Under the pieces are notes generated by a model, which saw nothing but the letters and a program-made list of their open reading frames with translations, did not search any database and was not told where the DNA came from. A stretch of 55,565 nucleotides of DNA, taken from Desulfuromonas sp. Lineage in GTDB: Bacteria; Desulfobacterota; Desulfuromonadia; Desulfuromonadales; BM501. The stretch lies in assembly GCF_002868845.1 (NCBI RefSeq), contig NZ_PKUB01000013.1:43537-99101 (forward strand), read 5' to 3'. Below are positions 3,333-50,414 of the stretch, piece after piece; position 1 is the stretch's first letter; each line of letters opens with the position of its first letter. Position numbers and translations under genes: made by a program.

Positions 3333-4511
3333 ATGTCCAAAAAGCCCCTCTCCACACGATTCGCACCCGCCGAACGCGCGCCCGAGGCCTTGCTGAAGCG
3401 GCAGAGCGACCACTTCTCTCAGGACACCATCACCGCGCAACTCCTCGATTCCGTGCCGAACATCCTGATGGTTCTCAATGCCCAGCGGCAGGTCGTTTTC
3501 GCCAATCGGCACCTGCTGAAACTGGTCGGTATGGATGAGGAGGCCCTGGTGCTCGGACTGCGCCCCGGCGAGGTGCTCGGCTGCGAGCTTGTCGAGGAGG
3601 CGGTGGACGGCTGCGGCACCGGCGAGGGGTGCCGGACCTGCGGCGCGGTGCTGGCTATCCTGGCCAGCCTGGAAGGCGAGGGCCAGGTTCGGGAGTGCAG
3701 CATCCTTCGCACTTCGGGCCTGAAGACCGAGGCGCTCAGCCTTCTCGTCTCGGCGACACCCCTCGAGTTCGGCGGCGAGCGCTTCACCATCTTCGCCGCA
3801 AGCGACATCAGCCAGCAGAAGCGTCGGCAGGCTCTGGAACGGATTTTTTATCATGACGTTCTCAACGTGGTGGGGAGCATTCGGGGGTTTGCCGAAATCC
3901 TGCGTGATTATGAACCCGAGGATCGGCAGGAGATTTATGGCCTGATCCACGCGGCCGCCCAGCAGACCATCGGTGAGATCGAGGGGCAGCGGGTGCTCTC
4001 GGCCGTCGAGAGCCGGGACCTGGAGGTGCGGCCGGAGCCTCTGGAGGCCGGGCGCTTTCTCCAACAGATCGTAGATATCTATCGCAGGCACGATGCGGCA
4101 AAAGGGAGGCAACTGGTCCTGGAGGCGGGGGGGGAAGAGGTCGTGCTGCACAGCGACCCGACCCTGCTGGGACGGGTCCTCGGCAACATGCTCAAGAACG
4201 CCCTCGAGGCAAGCGGGGAGGGCGAGACGGTGCGGGCCGGCTGGTCGGAGGAGGGGGACGGAGTCAGCTTCCGGGTGGCCAATCCAGGCGTCATCCCCAT
4301 GGCAGACCAGGTCCAGATTTTTCGGCGCAACTTCTCCACAAAGGGGCGGGATCGCGGCCTTGGGACCTACGGCATGCGGCTGCTGAGCGAGTACCTCGGG
4401 GGAAAGGTCTCCTTCTCCAGCTCAGCCTCGGGGGGGACAACCTTCGTCGCCTCCTTTCCACGAAGTTTCCAGCCGGCGAAGGATTCTAGCGCGTCAAAAG
4501 AAGAACCGTAA
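3333..4511 (+). CDS. Soluble PAS-domain sensor histidine kinase with cysteine cluster
   Basis: The 392-residue protein has no membrane segment, so it should sense a cytoplasmic signal. Residues about 35-165 form a PAS fold (LLDSVPNILMVLNAQRQVVFANRH at its start). Next comes an H-box around His174 (IFYHDVLNVVGSIRGFAEIL), and residues about 260-385 form an ATP-binding HATPase domain with an N-box (GNMLKNALEAS) and a GLGTYGMRLL G-box. The H-box has Asp-Val rather than the usual Glu-Ile after His, a variant seen in some soluble kinases. Inside the PAS domain Cys84, Cys94, Cys100 and Cys103 could bind a metal or Fe-S cluster or act as a redox switch. No response regulator is fused or immediately adjacent; the nearest is the CheY-like gene at 4989. 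Its last 26 bases overlap the end of the convergent cytochrome b5-like gene. Confidence 0.88.
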   Translation: MSKKPLSTRFAPAERAPEALLKRQSDHFSQDTITAQLLDSVPNILMVLNAQRQVVFANRHLLKLVGMDEEALVLGLRPGEVLGCELVEEAVDGCGTGEGCRTCGAVLAILASLEGEGQVRECSILRTSGLKTEALSLLVSATPLEFGGERFTIFAASDISQQKRRQALERIFYHDVLNVVGSIRGFAEILRDYEPEDRQEIYGLIHAAAQQTIGEIEGQRVLSAVESRDLEVRPEPLEAGRFLQQIVDIYRRHDAAKGRQLVLEAGGEEVVLHSDPTLLGRVLGNMLKNALEASGEGETVRAGWSEEGDGVSFRVANPGVIPMADQVQIFRRNFSTKGRDRGLGTYGMRLLSEYLGGKVSFSSSASGGTTFVASFPRSFQPAKDSSASKEEP

Positions 4512-4806
4512 CGACCAGGATGATTGCCAGCGCGGCCAGGGCCAGCTTGACGGTGCCGCTCCCGCCCCGGGCCGGTGCGGGTTCCTGCTCCAGCTTTCCG
4601 ACGACCGGGTAGCGCTCCACCACCGACCGCACGTGAGGGGCTTTCCACAGGGCTTCGCTCAGGTCGCAGCCGGCCCGGTGCTCCCCCTGGTGGCTTCCCG
4701 CCTGCCACAGGGGGCTGTCGGTGAAGTCGTAGACCTTGCCGTTGACCGCTACATAGGCTTTGCGCCCATCCCTGCCGTCGTGCCGGGCCAGTTCTTTGAG
4801 GGTCAT
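4486..4806 (-). CDS. Tail-anchored cytochrome b5-like haem-binding domain protein
   Basis: Residues 1-75 of this 106-residue protein match the cytochrome b5-like haem/steroid-binding fold (TLKELARHDGRDGRKAYVAV, then GKVYDFTDSPLW). His residues in SHQGEH and in APHVRSV are candidates for haem ligation. The classic HPGG motif is absent, which is usual for the short bacterial versions. Residues about 83-105 are a single hydrophobic helix ending in Arg, so the domain is probably anchored in the inner membrane with the haem domain on the cytoplasmic side. The likely role is electron transfer or ligand binding; no partner oxidoreductase is nearby. The 3' end overlaps the convergent kinase gene by 26 bases. 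Confidence 0.8.
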   Translation of the reverse strand: MTLKELARHDGRDGRKAYVAVNGKVYDFTDSPLWQAGSHQGEHRAGCDLSEALWKAPHVRSVVERYPVVGKLEQEPAPARGGSGTVKLALAALAIILVVTVLLLTR

Positions 4807-4870: not shown

Positions 4871-4899
4871 TAAAGTTTTTGCCGGAAATATCCGATTAA
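4871..4899 (+). promoter_or_regulatory. Possible sigma-28 (FliA-type) promoter of the cheY-like gene
   Basis: TAAAGTTT at 4871-4878 is an exact match to the sigma-28 -35 element. It is followed after 12 bases by TCCGATTAA, close to the -10 consensus GCCGATAA. The spacer is one base longer than the usual 11. It lies about 90 bases before a chemotaxis-type CheY gene, which fits a motility regulon. Confidence 0.45.
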
Positions 4900-4988
4900 G
4901 TGACAATACTAGCAGTCTCGACGCCCGGCGCAAGCCAATGGCCCTTCGGCCCGGTTCGTCGGCGTTTAAAATCGAGGAGGATGTATCT

Positions 4989-5348
4989 ATGAAAAAGGTG
5001 CTGATCGTTGACGACAGCATCACCGTCGCCCGCCAGCTGGAAAAGATCGTTAGCAGCACGGGGGAGTTCGAGGTGATCGCCCAGGCCCGCAACGGGGCCG
5101 AGGCTCTCAAGCTACACCGCAGTGAAAAACCTGACATTATCTGCATGGACATGAACATGCCGGTGATGTGCGGCCTGACCGCGTTGCGTACCATGGTCGC
5201 CGTGGACAAGGAGGTCAAGGTGATCATGGTGACCTCCCTCGGCGGGGTCGGCGACAAGTTCACCGAGGCTCTCAAATTCGGAGCGCGCAACGTCGTCTCC
5301 AAGCCTTTTGACAAGGACGTAGTTCTGGAGGCTCTGCGCGCCGCCTAG
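4989..5348 (+). CDS. CheY-like single-domain response regulator
   Basis: The 119-residue product is a lone receiver domain. The acidic pair is in LIVDDS, the phospho-acceptor Asp is in MDMNMP, the switch Thr in VTSLGG, and the conserved Lys in SKPFD. There is no output domain, so it would act by protein-protein contact, as CheY does at the flagellar motor or on a kinase. The start was placed at the ATG at 4989 because a GAGGAGG ribosome site lies just upstream; the frame is open further upstream but without a ribosome site. The next gene, 48 bases on, carries a CheX-type phosphatase domain, so the two probably form a phosphorylation/dephosphorylation pair. Confidence 0.92.
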   Translation: MKKVLIVDDSITVARQLEKIVSSTGEFEVIAQARNGAEALKLHRSEKPDIICMDMNMPVMCGLTALRTMVAVDKEVKVIMVTSLGGVGDKFTEALKFGARNVVSKPFDKDVVLEALRAA

Positions 5349-5396
5349 CCCGTTGCCGGCACGGAGCGCTGTATCGATTTATTCAGGGGAGGGACA

Positions 5397-6263
5397 ATGG
5401 CAGTCAAGTTTTTCGGGCAGTTCCTGGTCGAGCGGGGAACCGTCGGCAGGGAGCAGATCCTGCAGGCCATCGAACTGCAGGAGAAGACCAATCTGCGCTT
5501 CGGAGAGATGGCCCTTTCGATGAAGCTGATGACCGATTCCGACGTGGAGCGGGTCCATCTGGCTCAGCGCAGCGAGGACCTGCGTTTCGGCGACATGGCG
5601 GTCAAGCTGGGAATCATCACTCCGGAGCAGCTCCAGCAGGTGCTGACCCGGCAGAAGAACAGCCATCTTTACATCGGCGAGGCGCTGGTCAAGATCGGCG
5701 CTCTGGCGCGGCACGACCTGATCCGCTACCTGGACGAGTTCCGCAAGGACCAGGCGCCCTTCCTGGAGCGGCGGACCATCGTCCCAGAGGGGCTGGCGAA
5801 CGCCGAAACTTGGGCCATGGTGGCCGACCTGACCTACAAGATGCTGACCCGGGTCGTCAACCTCGAGCACCGCCCCGGCCCGTGTTCGGTGACCTCGTCG
5901 CTTCAGTCCCACGGGGTGGTGGTCGCCATGGACTTCACCGGGGCGCTGCAGGCCCGCTACCTCCTTTCGATCTCCTCCGGGGTCCAGGCCCAGATCGCTC
6001 GGGCCATTCTGCAGGAGGCGGACGTTTCGGCAGAGCCGCAGGAGGTGCTCGACGACACGGTGATGGAGTTCGTCAACATCGTCTGCGGCAACGCCGTGGC
6101 CAAGGCCGCCCAGATGGGTTTTCAGATGGATATCCGGCCTCCCGAGCTGATCGAGGCAAAGGGCGGACCCGTCACCGCCAAACCCGGCCAGTCCGGGCTG
6201 CTCTTCCATATCCATGTGGCCGAAGGGGAGCGGGCCGAAATGGCTCTCTTCATTCGCGGCTAG
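5397..6263 (+). CDS. CheX-type CheY-phosphatase domain with N-terminal helical repeats
   Basis: This is a 288-residue soluble protein. Residues 1-120 contain three related helical units, each with an [F/I]G-x2-[L/A]-V pattern followed by a segment resembling EQL..V...Q. They resemble the N-terminal (MshEN/GspE-N-like) domains of type II secretion and pilus ATPases, which in some cases bind cyclic di-GMP. Residues about 130-288 match the CheC/CheX phosphatase fold. The catalytic E-x-x-N is seen as Glu224 and Asn227 (MEFVNIVCGN), and this single active site fits CheX. The likely role is dephosphorylation of the CheY-like protein encoded just upstream. A terminator follows, so the two genes look like a complete small operon. 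Cyclic di-GMP binding is only a possibility. Confidence 0.82.
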   Translation: MAVKFFGQFLVERGTVGREQILQAIELQEKTNLRFGEMALSMKLMTDSDVERVHLAQRSEDLRFGDMAVKLGIITPEQLQQVLTRQKNSHLYIGEALVKIGALARHDLIRYLDEFRKDQAPFLERRTIVPEGLANAETWAMVADLTYKMLTRVVNLEHRPGPCSVTSSLQSHGVVVAMDFTGALQARYLLSISSGVQAQIARAILQEADVSAEPQEVLDDTVMEFVNIVCGNAVAKAAQMGFQMDIRPPELIEAKGGPVTAKPGQSGLLFHIHVAEGERAEMALFIRG

Positions 6264-6290
6264 ACAGAGGCGGGAAATCACAGACGACAA

Positions 6291-6321
6291 AGCGGGGCCC
6301 CACAGCGGGCCCCGCTTTTTT
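6291..6321. terminator. Terminator after the CheX-like gene
   Basis: A 10-bp perfect stem (AGCGGGGCCC / GGGCCCCGCT) with a CACAGC loop is followed by TTTTTATT. It serves the plus-strand cheY/cheX pair and may also end the convergent nitroreductase transcript, although the U-run on that side is short. Confidence 0.88.
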
Positions 6322-41531: not shown

Positions 41532-41570
41532 GAGTGCCTCAATTCACGGAAAAGAGGGGGTTTTTCAGCT

Positions 41571-42920
41571 ATGGCTAAAATTGTTCCGTTTCGCGGGGTG
41601 CGCTACAACCCGGACAGCGTTAAAGACCTGTCTAAGGTGATGGCTCCCCCCTACGACGTGATCTCGCCCGAACTTCAGGATGACCTTTACGCCCGCCACC
41701 CGGCCAACGTGGTCCGCCTCATCCTCGGCAAGACTTCCGAAGAGGACGGCGAGGCCGACAACCGCTACACCCGCGCCGCCGCCGACTTTGAAAAGTGGCA
41801 GGAGGACGGTGCTTTGATGCGCGACGCCGAGCCCTCCGTCTACCTCTATGACCAGGAATACCCCATCGAGGACGGCACCGTCGTCGTACGCAAGGGGTTC
41901 ATGGCCCTGACCCGCATCGAGGATTTCTCCTCCGGGGTGGTCAAGCCCCACGAGAAGACGTTGAGCGGTCCCAAGACCGACCGACTCAACCTCACCAAGG
42001 CCTGTGGCGCCAATTTCAGCCCCATCTTCTCCCTCTACTCCGACCCCTGCTGCGCCCTGGAGTCCCTGACCCGCAAGGATCGGGAGCAGAGCCCGGCCCT
42101 CGAAGTCTCTGACGACGACGGTGTCAAGCACCGGCTCTGGAGGGTGACCGACCCGGCGAGCATCGAGAAGGCTCAGGAACTCCTCTCCAGCAAGCCTCTC
42201 TTCATCGCAGACGGCCACCATCGCTACGAGACGGCCCTCAACTTCCGCAACCTGATGCGGGAGAAGCATCCCGGCTACACCGGCAAGGAGCTCTTTAACT
42301 ACGTCCTCATGTACTTCGCCAACATGGAGGACCAGGGGATGCTGATCTTCCCGACCCACAGGATGATTTTCAACCTGGAGGCCTTTCACCTGAAGAGCCT
42401 TCTGGAGGCCCTTGGGGAGCACTTCCTCATCGACCGCCGGCAGATCGACTCCACCGATCCCGCTGCGCGGGCGCAGGCCCGTGAGGAACTGAAGGAGAGG
42501 GGCCGGGACAAGCACGTCATGGGCCTTTTCGCCGGGGACGAGACCCTCTATTTCCTTACCCTGAAGGACGAGGCGGTGATGGATAGCTTCTTCGACCCCA
42601 GCTCTCCGAAAGTTCTGAGGACCCTCGACGTCTCGATTCTCCACAAGCTGATCCTGGAGGGGCTCCTCGACATTACGCCGGAGGCCCAGGAGAAGCAGGT
42701 CAATCTCAAGTACGTGAAGAATTTCGACGACCCCTTCGATCTTGTTCAGTGCGGCGAGTTTCAGCTGGCCTTCCTCATGAATTCCACCCGCATGAGCGAA
42801 GTTCGCGACGTGGCCAACGCCGGGGAGAAGATGCCGCAGAAATCGACTTACTTCTACCCCAAGCTCCTCACCGGGCTGGTCATCAACAAGATCGCTGCAT
42901 CGGAGACGGTGGAGGGGTAA
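41571..42920 (+). CDS. DUF1015 family protein
   Basis: A 449-residue soluble protein of the widespread DUF1015 family. It is recognised by MAKIVPFRGVRYNPDSV at the start, the APPYDVIS motif (residues about 24-31), HPANVVRLILGK, the central KPHEKTLSGPKTDRL block and the IADGHHRYETALNFR motif (about residues 214-228). The invariant His, Asp and Arg residues suggest an enzyme, but the reaction is not known to me. It is followed after 43 bases by a ParM-like gene on the same strand, with which it may form an operon. A ribosome site (AGAGGGGG) lies about ten bases before the ATG. Confidence 0.9.
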   Translation: MAKIVPFRGVRYNPDSVKDLSKVMAPPYDVISPELQDDLYARHPANVVRLILGKTSEEDGEADNRYTRAAADFEKWQEDGALMRDAEPSVYLYDQEYPIEDGTVVVRKGFMALTRIEDFSSGVVKPHEKTLSGPKTDRLNLTKACGANFSPIFSLYSDPCCALESLTRKDREQSPALEVSDDDGVKHRLWRVTDPASIEKAQELLSSKPLFIADGHHRYETALNFRNLMREKHPGYTGKELFNYVLMYFANMEDQGMLIFPTHRMIFNLEAFHLKSLLEALGEHFLIDRRQIDSTDPAARAQAREELKERGRDKHVMGLFAGDETLYFLTLKDEAVMDSFFDPSSPKVLRTLDVSILHKLILEGLLDITPEAQEKQVNLKYVKNFDDPFDLVQCGEFQLAFLMNSTRMSEVRDVANAGEKMPQKSTYFYPKLLTGLVINKIAASETVEG

Positions 42921-47459: not shown

Positions 47460-49160
47460 ATGACCGCCGACCGACTCGGAGAACTGCTCGTTCGCAACAA
47501 CCTGATCAAGGAGGAGCACCTCTCCAAGGCCCTTGCCGAGCAGAAGGCCACCGGCGGACGGCTCGGTGCGAGCCTGATCAAGCTGGGATTCATCGACGAG
47601 GAGGAGCTTGCCACCTTTCTCTCCCGGCAGTATGGCGTCCCGTCCATAAATCTTGCCGAATTCGAGATCGACCCCACCGTTATCCGCCTCGTTCCCGCCG
47701 AGGTGACCCAGAAATACCAGGTCGTCCCCATCAACAGGGCCGGCTCGACCCTCATCGTCGCAATGAGCGACCCCTCCAACATCTTCGCCATCGACGACAT
47801 CAAGTTCATGACGGGGTACAACGTCGAAGTGGTGGTCGCCCCGGAAACGGGCATCAAGCAGACCATCGACAAGTACTACGACCAGAGCGCCAGCCTGGCC
47901 GATGTCATGCACGACCTGGAGGACGTCGACCTCGAAGTGGTCGAGGAAGGGGATGACGTCGATGTTCTCGAACTCGCCAAGGCGAGCGAGGACGCCCCGG
48001 TCGTCAAGCTGGTCAACCTGATCCTCACCGACGCCATCAAGAAGGGCGCATCCGACATTCACATCGAGCCCTACGAGAAGTCGTTCCGGGTCCGCTACCG
48101 CATCGACGGGATGCTCTACGAGGTGATGCAGCCTCCCTTCAAGTTCAAGAACGCCATCACTTCCCGCATCAAGATCATGTCCGAGATGGACATCGCCGAG
48201 AGGCGCCTGCCCCAGGACGGGCGCATCAAGATCAAGCTGCCCGGCGGCAAGGACATGGATTACCGGGTCAACTGCCTGCCGACCCTTTTCGGGGAGAAGG
48301 TCTGCCTGCGGCTTCTGGACAAGGGCAACCTGCAGCTCGACATGACCAAGCTGGGCTACGAGGAGCAGGCCCTGCAGTGGTTCCAGAAGGAGATTCACAA
48401 GCCCTTCGGCATGGTCCTGGTTACCGGCCCCACCGGGTCGGGCAAGACGGTCTCCCTCTACTCGGCCCTGTCCGAGCTGAACAAGGTCTCCGAGAACATC
48501 TCCACGGCCGAGGACCCCGTCGAGTTCAACTTCGCCGGCATCAACCAGGTCCAGATGCACGAGGAGATCGGCCTCAATTTCGCCGCCGCCCTGCGGGCTT
48601 TTCTCCGCCAGGACCCGGACATTATCATGATCGGCGAGATTCGCGACTTCGAAACCGCCGAGATCGGGGTCAAGGCGGCCCTGACCGGGCACATGGTCCT
48701 CTCCACACTGCATACCAACGACGCCCCCAGCACCATAAACCGTCTTCTCAATATGGGGGTCGAGCCCTTCCTGGTCGCTTCGGCGGTCAACCTGATCACC
48801 GCCCAGCGGCTCGCCCGCCGCGTCTGCTCCGAGTGCAAGGTGGTGGATGAGATTCCCCAGCAGGCCCTTATCGACGCAGGCGTTCCCGCCGACGAGGTCG
48901 ACGAGCTCGTCTGTTACAAAGGGGAGGGGTGTTCGATCTGCAGCAATACCGGGCACAAGGGCCGGGTCGGCATCTACCAGGTCATGCCGATGTTCGAGGA
49001 ACTCCGGGAGATGGTCCTGGCCGGGGCCAACACCGCCGAAATCAAGCGGGAGTCGATGCGCCTCGGGGTGAAGACCATGCGCCAGTCGGCGCTGTCCAAA
49101 CTTCGAGAGGGGGTCGTCTCCTTCGAAGAGGTCCTCCGCAGCACGATTGCCGACGAATAG
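47460..49160 (+). CDS. pilB: Type IV pilus extension ATPase PilB
   Basis: The 566-residue hexameric motor powers pilin polymerisation. Residues 1-150 form the MshEN-type N-terminal domain (LGELLVRNNLIKEEHLSKAL). The ATPase core has the Asp box (SDIHIEPYE), Walker A GPTGSGKT at 323-330, Walker B DIIMIGEIRD near 387, and the His box GHMVLSTLHTNDAP. A four-Cys zinc site follows (VCSEC near 456 and CSIC near 493, with Cys in the VCYKGEGC segment). The ATG at 47460 has only a distant GGAG, so translation may be modest. It heads the pilB-pilT-pilC-pilS-pilR run, the Geobacter order. Confidence 0.97.
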   Translation: MTADRLGELLVRNNLIKEEHLSKALAEQKATGGRLGASLIKLGFIDEEELATFLSRQYGVPSINLAEFEIDPTVIRLVPAEVTQKYQVVPINRAGSTLIVAMSDPSNIFAIDDIKFMTGYNVEVVVAPETGIKQTIDKYYDQSASLADVMHDLEDVDLEVVEEGDDVDVLELAKASEDAPVVKLVNLILTDAIKKGASDIHIEPYEKSFRVRYRIDGMLYEVMQPPFKFKNAITSRIKIMSEMDIAERRLPQDGRIKIKLPGGKDMDYRVNCLPTLFGEKVCLRLLDKGNLQLDMTKLGYEEQALQWFQKEIHKPFGMVLVTGPTGSGKTVSLYSALSELNKVSENISTAEDPVEFNFAGINQVQMHEEIGLNFAAALRAFLRQDPDIIMIGEIRDFETAEIGVKAALTGHMVLSTLHTNDAPSTINRLLNMGVEPFLVASAVNLITAQRLARRVCSECKVVDEIPQQALIDAGVPADEVDELVCYKGEGCSICSNTGHKGRVGIYQVMPMFEELREMVLAGANTAEIKRESMRLGVKTMRQSALSKLREGVVSFEEVLRSTIADE

Positions 49161-49226
49161 CAAAGAGCCTCCGACCCTTCACGATCCGAAAACCAGCGGT
49201 TTATTATCATACGGGGATAGACACTC

Positions 49227-50339
49227 ATGACCGGAATGCAGGACTTTCTCAAGGCGATGGTCGACCAGGGGGCTTCGGACCTTCACATTACCAGCGGCAG
49301 CCCTCCCCAGGTGCGCATCGATGGGCAGATGGTCCCCCTGAAACTGCCCCCGTTCAGCCCGACGGACACCAAGAGGCTGTGTTACAGCATCCTCACCGAT
49401 GCCCAGAAGCGCAAATTCGAGGAGGAGAACGAGCTCGATATCTCCTTCGGCGTCAAGGGGATGGCCCGTTTTCGAGGCAACATCTACATGCAGCGTGGGG
49501 CGGTGGCGGGTGCCTTCCGGCTGATTCCCTTTTCCTTCCGCTCCTTCGAAGAGCTCGGTCTGCCCATGACCGTGAGGAACCTCGCCCGCAAGCCCCGCGG
49601 ACTGGTTCTGGTCACCGGCCCCACCGGCAGCGGAAAGTCGACCACCCTGGCCTCGATCATCGACACCATCAACAGCGAGCGCCACTAGCACATCATCACC
49701 ATCGAAGACCCCATCGAATACCTTCATCCCCACAAGAAATGCCTTATCAACCAGCGCGAAGTGGGGGCCGACACCGCGTCTTTCAAGAAAGCCCTCAAAT
49801 ATATCCTGCGCCAGGACCCCGACGTCGTCCTGCTGGGGGAGCTGCGGGACCTGGAGACCATCGAGGCGGCCCTGACCATCGCCGAGACGGGCCACCTCTG
49901 CTTTGCCACCCTGCACACGAACAACTGCGTTCAGACCATCAACCGCATCGTCGACGTCTTTCCCACCAATCAGCAGACCCAGGTGCGCACCCAGCTCTCC
50001 TTCGTTCTCGAAGGGGTCCTCTCCCAGTCCCTCATCCCCCGCCTTCACGGTCGCGGACGGGTCCTGGCCCTTGAGGTCATGGTGCCCACCACGGCAATCC
50101 GGGCCCTGATCAGGGACGACAAGGTTCACCAGATGTACTCGCAGATGCAGATGGGGCAGGAAAAGCACGGCATGCAGACCATGAACCAGAGCCTCTTCAT
50201 GCTCTACCACAAGAAAATGATCACTCTGGAGGACGCCATCGTCCGCTCCTCGGACATTGACGAGCTGAAGCAGATGATCGCCAACCCCGATGCGGTCCTG
50301 CGGCGCCAGGTGCTGACCGCAGCGCCGGGGAGAAGATAG
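49227..50339 (+). pseudogene. pilT: Type IV pilus retraction ATPase PilT, in-frame TAG
   Basis: PilT depolymerises the pilus to drive retraction and twitching. The full frame is 371 codons, normal for PilT: Asp box SDLHITSGSPPQVRIDG, Walker A GPTGSGKS near 131-138, Walker B DVVLLGELRDLETIEAA, His box GHLCFATLHTN, and the PilT-specific C-terminal AIRALIRDDK. An in-frame TAG at 49686-49688 ends translation after 153 codons, just before HIITIEDPIEYLHPHKKC, which continues in the same frame. The first fragment has Walker A but lacks Walker B and the hexamer interface, so it should be inactive. One base change from GAG or CAG explains it. Neighbours pilB and pilC are intact. Either the strain lacks this retraction motor or the base is a sequence error. 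Confidence 0.92.
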
Positions 50340-50414
50340 GCGGACCGGGAGGGGAAGGCGCCGCCGCCGGCGACGCTCCGGGCCGATTGACGCAAAGGGA
50401 AGGGAAGATCGACC

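Follow-up and report, generated by a model that had tools for sequence, protein, structure and literature searches.

The window analysed here, a stretch of 55,565 nucleotides from a Desulfuromonas sp. genome, carries between positions 4989 and 6263 of its forward strand a gene for a CheY-like response regulator, followed by a gene for a protein in which MshEN-like repeats are fused to a CheX domain. A first-pass annotation had proposed such a pair from the sequence, and Pfam profiles, NCBIfam profiles and predicted structural models confirmed it. The locus contains the following features, in which rows are those of the protein alignment described below:

4871-4897, forward strand: sigma-28-like site with the sequence TAAA-N16-TCCGATT, placed 118 bases ahead of the CheY start
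4974-4980, forward strand: Shine-Dalgarno-like GAGGAGG ahead of cheY, read directly from the sequence
4989-5348, forward strand: single-domain CheY-like response regulator of 119 amino acids (Pfam Response_reg, 3.7e-25; D8, D9, D54, T82, K105)
5397-6263, forward strand: MshEN-like array fused to CheX, 288 amino acids (Pfam and NCBIfam profiles, predicted models)
5409-5480, forward strand: half-motif 1, residues 5-28 (F5 F6 G7 ... Q28), with an aromatic residue at the Arg position; F5, F6, G7 and Q28 in 78 of 78 rows
5496-5567, forward strand: half-motif 2, residues 34-57 (R34 F35 G36 ... H54, Q57), superposing on MshE motif I
5583-5654, forward strand: half-motif 3, residues 63-86 (R63 F64 G65 ... 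Q86), superposing on MshE motif II
5670-5741, forward strand: half-motif 4, residues 92-115 (Y92 I93 G94 ... F115), in which Phe replaces the ligand Gln
5796-6257, forward strand: CheX phosphatase domain, residues 134-287 (Pfam CheX; predicted model on T. maritima CheX)
6066-6077, forward strand: ExxN catalytic motif E224...N227, both residues in 78 of 78 rows
6289-6318, forward strand: terminator-like hairpin of 12 pairs, 9 of them G-C, followed by a T run, 3' of the fusion gene

The best explanation of this layout is that cheY and the CheX fusion gene form one small transcription unit, and to the reading of the locus as a whole we assign an even chance of being right. No Rfam RNA, riboswitches included, was found between 4400 and 6600 at E values up to 0.1. 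Upstream on the forward strand, positions 3333-4511 encode a sensor kinase with PAS and HATPase domains and a weak HisKA match (0.11), and between it and cheY lies, on the reverse strand at 4486-4806, a gene for a small cytochrome b5-like protein with a hydrophobic C-terminal stretch. The kinase was considered as a member of the unit and rejected: such a gene lies near 2 of the 80 relatives only (L005 and L015; flank and contig ends limit its detection), and the opposite-strand cytochrome b5-like gene separates it from cheY.

A scan of contigs for relatives of the fusion gene yielded 98 related stretches, the best 80 of which, 48-61% identical, were retained; nearly all of these span residues ~1-286. 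Among these best 80 of 98, a CheY gene lies directly upstream on the same strand in 78. At locus L011 the CheX gene is present and no CheY was found beside it, and at L063, one of the two loci without a CheY call, the contig ends 173 bases upstream of the fusion. Likewise, no adjoining CheY was found next to the CheX gene in genomes G087 and G040, the latter offering just 503 bases of upstream sequence. Three incomplete sequences (L025, L066 and L080) were left out of the alignment of the fusion protein, so that residue counts refer to 78 rows. The copy in the window deviates at nearly constant sites, for example with K43 (Gly in 67/78), A140 (Glu in 75/78) and H271 (Pro in 77/78). Recurrent neighbours that look like real genes, named by eye from a clustering that blended real and antisense reading frames, are a PpiC-like gene (41 loci) and a methyltransferase-like gene (38 loci).

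An orthologue was detected in 89 of 200 Desulfuromonadia genomes (E up to 1e-20). This count takes in G149 and G174, whose matches are partial or split, and G040, whose copy has diverged (39%). An even sample of the phylum gave matches in 11 of 394 genomes, 10 of them in Desulfuromonadia and the remaining one, G201, at 31% identity outside the class; two of the stretches from the contig scan are labelled Nitrospirae. The unit occurs in many Geobacter-like bacteria and is distributed across the class.

The C-terminal part of the fusion protein matches Pfam CheX at residues 174-270 (1e-14; 54.8 bits, cut-off 27) and also Pfam CheC (1.9e-9), and residues 134-287 of the predicted model superpose on T. 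maritima CheX (1squ_A) with a Z score of 20.5 and an rmsd of 2.1 A over 151 aligned residues. Phosphatases of the CheC/CheX/FliY type act via an Asn and an acidic residue (PMC3035606), and in the alignment with B. burgdorferi CheX (3hzh_B), E224 and N227 of the fusion fall on its Glu and Asn. The domain resembles the CheX proteins of T. maritima (1squ/1xko) and B. burgdorferi (3hzh) over the whole fold (Z 18.5-20.5) and in the ExxN motif, whereas the solved CheX structures are single-domain proteins and an N-terminal array is attached here. Profiles, the predicted model and the upstream CheY in 78 of 80 loci accordingly bear out the earlier description of a CheX-type domain fused to repeats with an adjoining CheY.

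The combination of the two kinds of domain has been in print since 2016: Wang et al. (PMC5013675, section 12) list an MshEN-CheX association in one sentence, and the main text does not say in which organism it occurs, how many repeats it has, whether a CheY goes with it or what it does. The unit is thus a conserved variant of a known architecture, and the present proteins may be among those in Supplementary Table 4 of that paper. Its distinguishing features are the four half-motifs, the conserved partner CheY, the class-wide distribution and the altered ligand positions. Genome surveys of Geobacter and Desulfuromonas have counted cheX genes (PMC2577667, PMC8396549, PMC8235581) that may or may not correspond to the present orthologue, and fused repeats go unmentioned in the available sections of these surveys. 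A search of the open-access literature found no experimental work on a c-di-GMP-regulated CheX.

The CheY protein has the receiver fold and the complete set of phosphorylation residues (Pfam and alignment). In the 39 of 74 available rows that were aligned, D8, D9, D54 and K105 are kept in all and T82 in 38. Residue 102 is Val in 39/39 rows; we compared it with the position of E. coli Tyr106, at which an aromatic residue is expected in a CheY acting on the flagellar switch, and the equivalent residue is Tyr in P. horikoshii CheY and Trp in the CheY encoded on the CheA contig of the host genome. Because Val102 is not aromatic, we do not file this protein as a standard flagellar-switch CheY, and FliM may not be its target.

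The N-terminal array consists of four 24-residue half-motifs separated by 5-residue linkers, which gives an exact spacing of 29 residues. Residues 29 positions apart (lag 29) have a mean identity of 0.248 in 78 homologues, compared with 0.034-0.10 at the other lags from 20 to 39; the three N-terminal units counted in the first-pass annotation have to be corrected to four (residues 5-28, 34-57, 63-86 and 92-115). Its likening of the units to PilB-type pilus ATPases holds, in that the sequence of the fusion matches T. thermophilus PilF (3.5e-8) and V. cholerae MshE (4.5e-5) in the PDB and the PilB encoded in the window itself at 47460-49160 (BLASTP, 7e-6). The NCBIfam model NF053729, 'cyclic di-GMP-binding domain-containing protein, MshE-related', is matched in two stretches (5.3e-24; 83.8 bits, cut-off 38).

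In V. cholerae MshE the Arg of each motif stacks on guanine, the Gly and the residue after it bind guanine via the backbone, the Gln binds ribose and phosphate, and the leucines pack on the bases, Leu29 on guanine; the protein binds cGAMP weakly (KD 3.3e-4 M) (PMC5013675). For GSPII-B of PilF, which binds c-di-GMP with a KD of 6 nM, Lys or Leu at the Arg position has been described as compatible with binding and as improving it, extending the consensus to (R/K/L)LG, and another domain of PilF, GSPII-A, is a non-binder (PMC11731258). By structural alignment with the predicted model, MshE residues 7-64 map without gaps on residues 32-89 of the fusion, so that Arg9, Gly11, Leu25, Leu29 and Gln32 correspond to positions 34, 36, 50, 54 and 57, and Arg38, Gly40, Leu54, Leu58 and Gln61 to positions 63, 65, 79, 83 and 86.

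The Gly and Gln positions are invariant in repeats 1 to 3 (78/78 rows), among them G36, Q57, G65 and Q86, the ligand Gly/Gln positions of repeats 2 and 3. Position 34 is Lys or Arg in 71 rows and Ser in 7, and position 63 is Lys or Arg in 66 of 78; the residue that follows is Leu in 35 and Phe in 30 rows in repeat 2, and Leu in 46 and Phe in 31 in repeat 3. Position 54, the counterpart of Leu29, is His in 72 rows and Asn in 6. Repeats 2 and 3 hence keep the polar ligand positions and have one unusual stacking position. At the Arg site, repeats 1 and 4 have Phe5 and Tyr92, outside the (R/K/L)-L-G consensus. The LxxxLxxQ end of the motif has its Gln in 78/78 rows in repeats 1-3; in repeat 2 its second Leu is His (72/78), and in repeat 4 the Gln is Phe; G94 and F115 of repeat 4 are present in 78/78 rows and Y92 in 76/78. 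Long invariant stretches, such as the N-terminal MAVKFFGQ and HLYIGEAL, lie outside the ligand positions.

The predicted models (full length: mean pLDDT 87.5, pTM 0.60; N-terminal 125 residues: mean pLDDT 93.7) show in residues 32-89 the four-helix fold of the MshEN N-subdomain. These residues superpose over 58 positions on c-di-GMP-bound MshE (5htl_B) with Z 11.4 and an rmsd of 1.4 A in the full-length model, and with Z 11.6 and 1.3 A in the N-terminal one, values to be read with the aligner's caution that a Z under ~13 can reflect an arrangement common in helical bundles, and with the consideration that a predicted model trained on such structures may echo them. The N-terminal model matches the c-di-GMP-bound structures of PilF GSPII-B at Z 9.1-10.9 and the rest, including the non-binding GSPII-A, at 4.8 or less. 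A Foldseek search with the N-terminal model gave no match below E 0.1 (best 0.11). Structural similarity to MshEN/GspE-N, whose absence the earlier proposal had named as speaking against itself, was thus looked for in predicted models and found.

The array agrees with MshEN (V. cholerae MshE residues 1-62; NF053729) in its 24-residue half-motifs and 5-residue linkers, in the Gly and Gln that repeats 2 and 3 have at the ligand positions, and in the predicted fold, which lies within 1.4 A over 58 residues. It differs from MshE in having four half-motifs instead of two, mixed Lys/Arg at the Arg positions and His54 in place of Leu29, and the fusion carries CheX and no ATPase. With GSPII-B of T. 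thermophilus PilF it shares the Lys with which the first motif begins and the similarity to the c-di-GMP-bound structures, but GSPII-B is one of three separate GSPII domains in a pilus ATPase. The two NCBIfam stretches cover repeats 1+2 and 3+4, while the models place the ligand-like pair on repeats 2+3, and the register of binding is therefore uncertain. The c-di-GMP input that had been suggested for this protein stands as a plausible inference from the predicted superposition of repeats 2 and 3 on c-di-GMP-bound MshE and from their invariant Gly and Gln, qualified by the one deviating stacking residue.

The same data have to be weighed for an array that no longer binds nucleotide and serves as a protein-docking module, bringing a constitutive CheX phosphatase to the chemoreceptor array, to CheA or to the pole, with the invariant residues forming the interface. 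Strong conservation of the very residues that deviate from the ligand motif (F5, Y92, H54 and F115), as an interface would show, and the long invariant stretches outside the ligand positions fit this explanation, and the non-binding GSPII-A of PilF is a precedent for it (PMC11731258). However, the ligand-contact Gly and Gln are invariant in three repeats, and the non-binding XpsE has lost residues of this kind, its changes including L29R, G11V, G40L and Q61V (PMC5013675, section 12). We consider docking rather unlikely.

The output of the unit was approached through promoters and through the distribution of flagella and pili. The consensus spacer of sigma-28 promoters is 15 bases, and the site in the window, with 16, is degenerate if taken alone. 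The earlier observation of a sigma-28-like site by cheY gains weight from its recurrence in relatives: among 72 loci, 13 from varied lineages have the pattern ahead of CheY, where shuffled sequences give a mean of 0.375 and a maximum of 3. A sigma-70-like site occurs in 40 of the 72 upstream regions (shuffle mean 0.78, maximum 4), and none was found in the window between 4500 and 6400. For both counts, a locus was included in the 72 if its CheY match began at residue 1 and at least 150 bases were available upstream. FliA therefore probably controls the unit in some members of the group but not in all. The host genome has one clear FliA, and a scan of its flagellar contigs for sigma-28-like sites, made without a shuffle control, offers weak support. 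As a separate observation, a conserved block, AAAGCCAAACATA-CTTTTGAC, lies ahead of the sigma-70-like promoter upstream of cheY in ~40 loci (for example L048, L054 and L072); it might be bound by a regulator, or it might belong with the divergent PpiC-like gene.

Of the 200 Desulfuromonadia genomes, 150 have a FliG match and 142 a flagellin match. One or the other is present in 85 of the 89 genomes with an orthologue and in 69 of the 111 others (Fisher p 6e-9, relatedness ignored), and by genus FliG is present in 28/30 with an orthologue versus 18/37 without (Fisher p 7e-5, relatedness ignored). Flagella are thus found without the unit in 69 genomes, and four genomes with an orthologue (G064, G087, G149 and G164) gave no FliG or flagellin match at 1e-10. 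In G041, a one-contig genome with neither marker, the fusion gene is a fragment with a stop and no CheY was detected beside it; in its five sampled congeners (G042-G046) the gene, FliG and flagellin are all present. A survey of Desulfuromonas reports cheX in the two flagellated ones of five strains only (PMC8235581). Of the flagellar link that had been proposed, then, the co-occurrence stands, with these four genomes as exceptions.

These exceptions are among the arguments for a phosphatase module, c-di-GMP-sensing or plain, whose CheY acts on another output (polysaccharide, pili or gene control) or as a phosphate sink and not on the flagellar switch. G064 retains both cheY and the CheX fusion, the unit lies outside the che and flagellar clusters of the host genome, and the invariant Val102 stands against the Trp of the CheY on the CheA contig. 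The strong flagellar association by genome and by genus, the loss in the flagella-less G041 and the sigma-28-like sites oppose it, and we judge such an output quite improbable.

That the module ties type IV pilus motors to signalling of the chemotaxis type, which the first-pass annotation had also envisaged, is very improbable: its repeats are related to those of PilB/PilF and pil genes lie in the same window, but these are ~42 kb from the unit, the 22 neighbour families that recur most in related loci include, judged by eye, no pil-, che- or flagellar-like genes, MshEN repeats are found in many non-pilus proteins (PMC5013675, section 12), and with PilT in 199 of 200 Desulfuromonadia genomes and the orthologue in 89, the presence of pili does not predict that of the unit.

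The reading that we put forward, with about equal weight for and against it, is that the locus encodes a CheY together with a CheY~P phosphatase that is gated by c-di-GMP and tied to flagellar chemotaxis. It builds on observations at the level of sequence or predicted structure, namely the domain make-up, the number and spacing of the repeats, the intact catalytic motif, the conserved pairing and the flagellar association. From these we infer nucleotide binding, dephosphorylation of the neighbouring CheY, gating, the direction of its effect and the flagellum as output. The four-repeat array would be a cyclic-dinucleotide sensor, most likely for c-di-GMP, and the CheX domain a dedicated phosphatase for the phosphorylated form of the neighbouring CheY. 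c-di-GMP may bind in an MshE-like way between repeats 2 and 3, with repeats 1 and 4 capping the array, and its binding might alter the access to the CheX domain or its dimerisation. In this way, c-di-GMP would set the lifetime of CheY~P and couple the motile-sessile decision to flagellar chemotaxis. Against a simple version of this scheme are His54 at a base-stacking position, the non-aromatic residue 102 of CheY and the four orthologue genomes without flagellar markers. The conserved His54 and the aromatic half-sites could reflect an altered ligand preference, for example for cGAMP, which Geobacter makes. That the unit acts across the class in this way, with a cyclic dinucleotide directly gating the removal of phosphate from CheY and the messenger thereby setting the decay time of the chemotaxis signal, we propose tentatively and hold to be somewhat less than an even bet.

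Control of motility by c-di-GMP is known at the levels of transcription, motor braking and receptor methylation, and with a phosphatase that carries its own c-di-GMP-type array, signal termination would join these steps. If this is true, a cell's cue to settle might feed straight into its steering. The host bacteria are dominant in communities that reduce metals or live on electrodes, and the change from swimming to biofilm is important there. Since the unit is small and soluble, its binding and activity are directly testable.

In keeping with the c-di-GMP reading, the host genome has 40 GGDEF matches, a few being fragments of a single gene; it also has 20 matches of the MshEN type. Several overlapping matches of the latter type lie at 41567-41899 of the contig that holds the window (G000:C13, partly in L110), ~1.6 kb before the window start, where a minus-strand reading frame of 680 amino acids is another multi-repeat MshEN-type array. 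On contig C25, which also carries FliG and flagellin, two CheA kinases (L106:6160-8637 and L107:17-2134) have MshE-like half-motifs before the dimerisation domain; with 36.5 and 39.9 bits, these fall on either side of the cut-off of 38, and the linker between the halves is ~4 residues shorter than in MshE. If the half-motifs of CheA work, one may speculate that a c-di-GMP-type input could touch both kinase and phosphatase. At the other end of the window, the pilT frame that follows pilB at ~49200-50340 on the forward strand has one in-frame TAG in a conserved stretch, so that pilT is interrupted in the assembly, through a sequencing error, a mutation or recoding; the host genome contains three further PilT-family matches.
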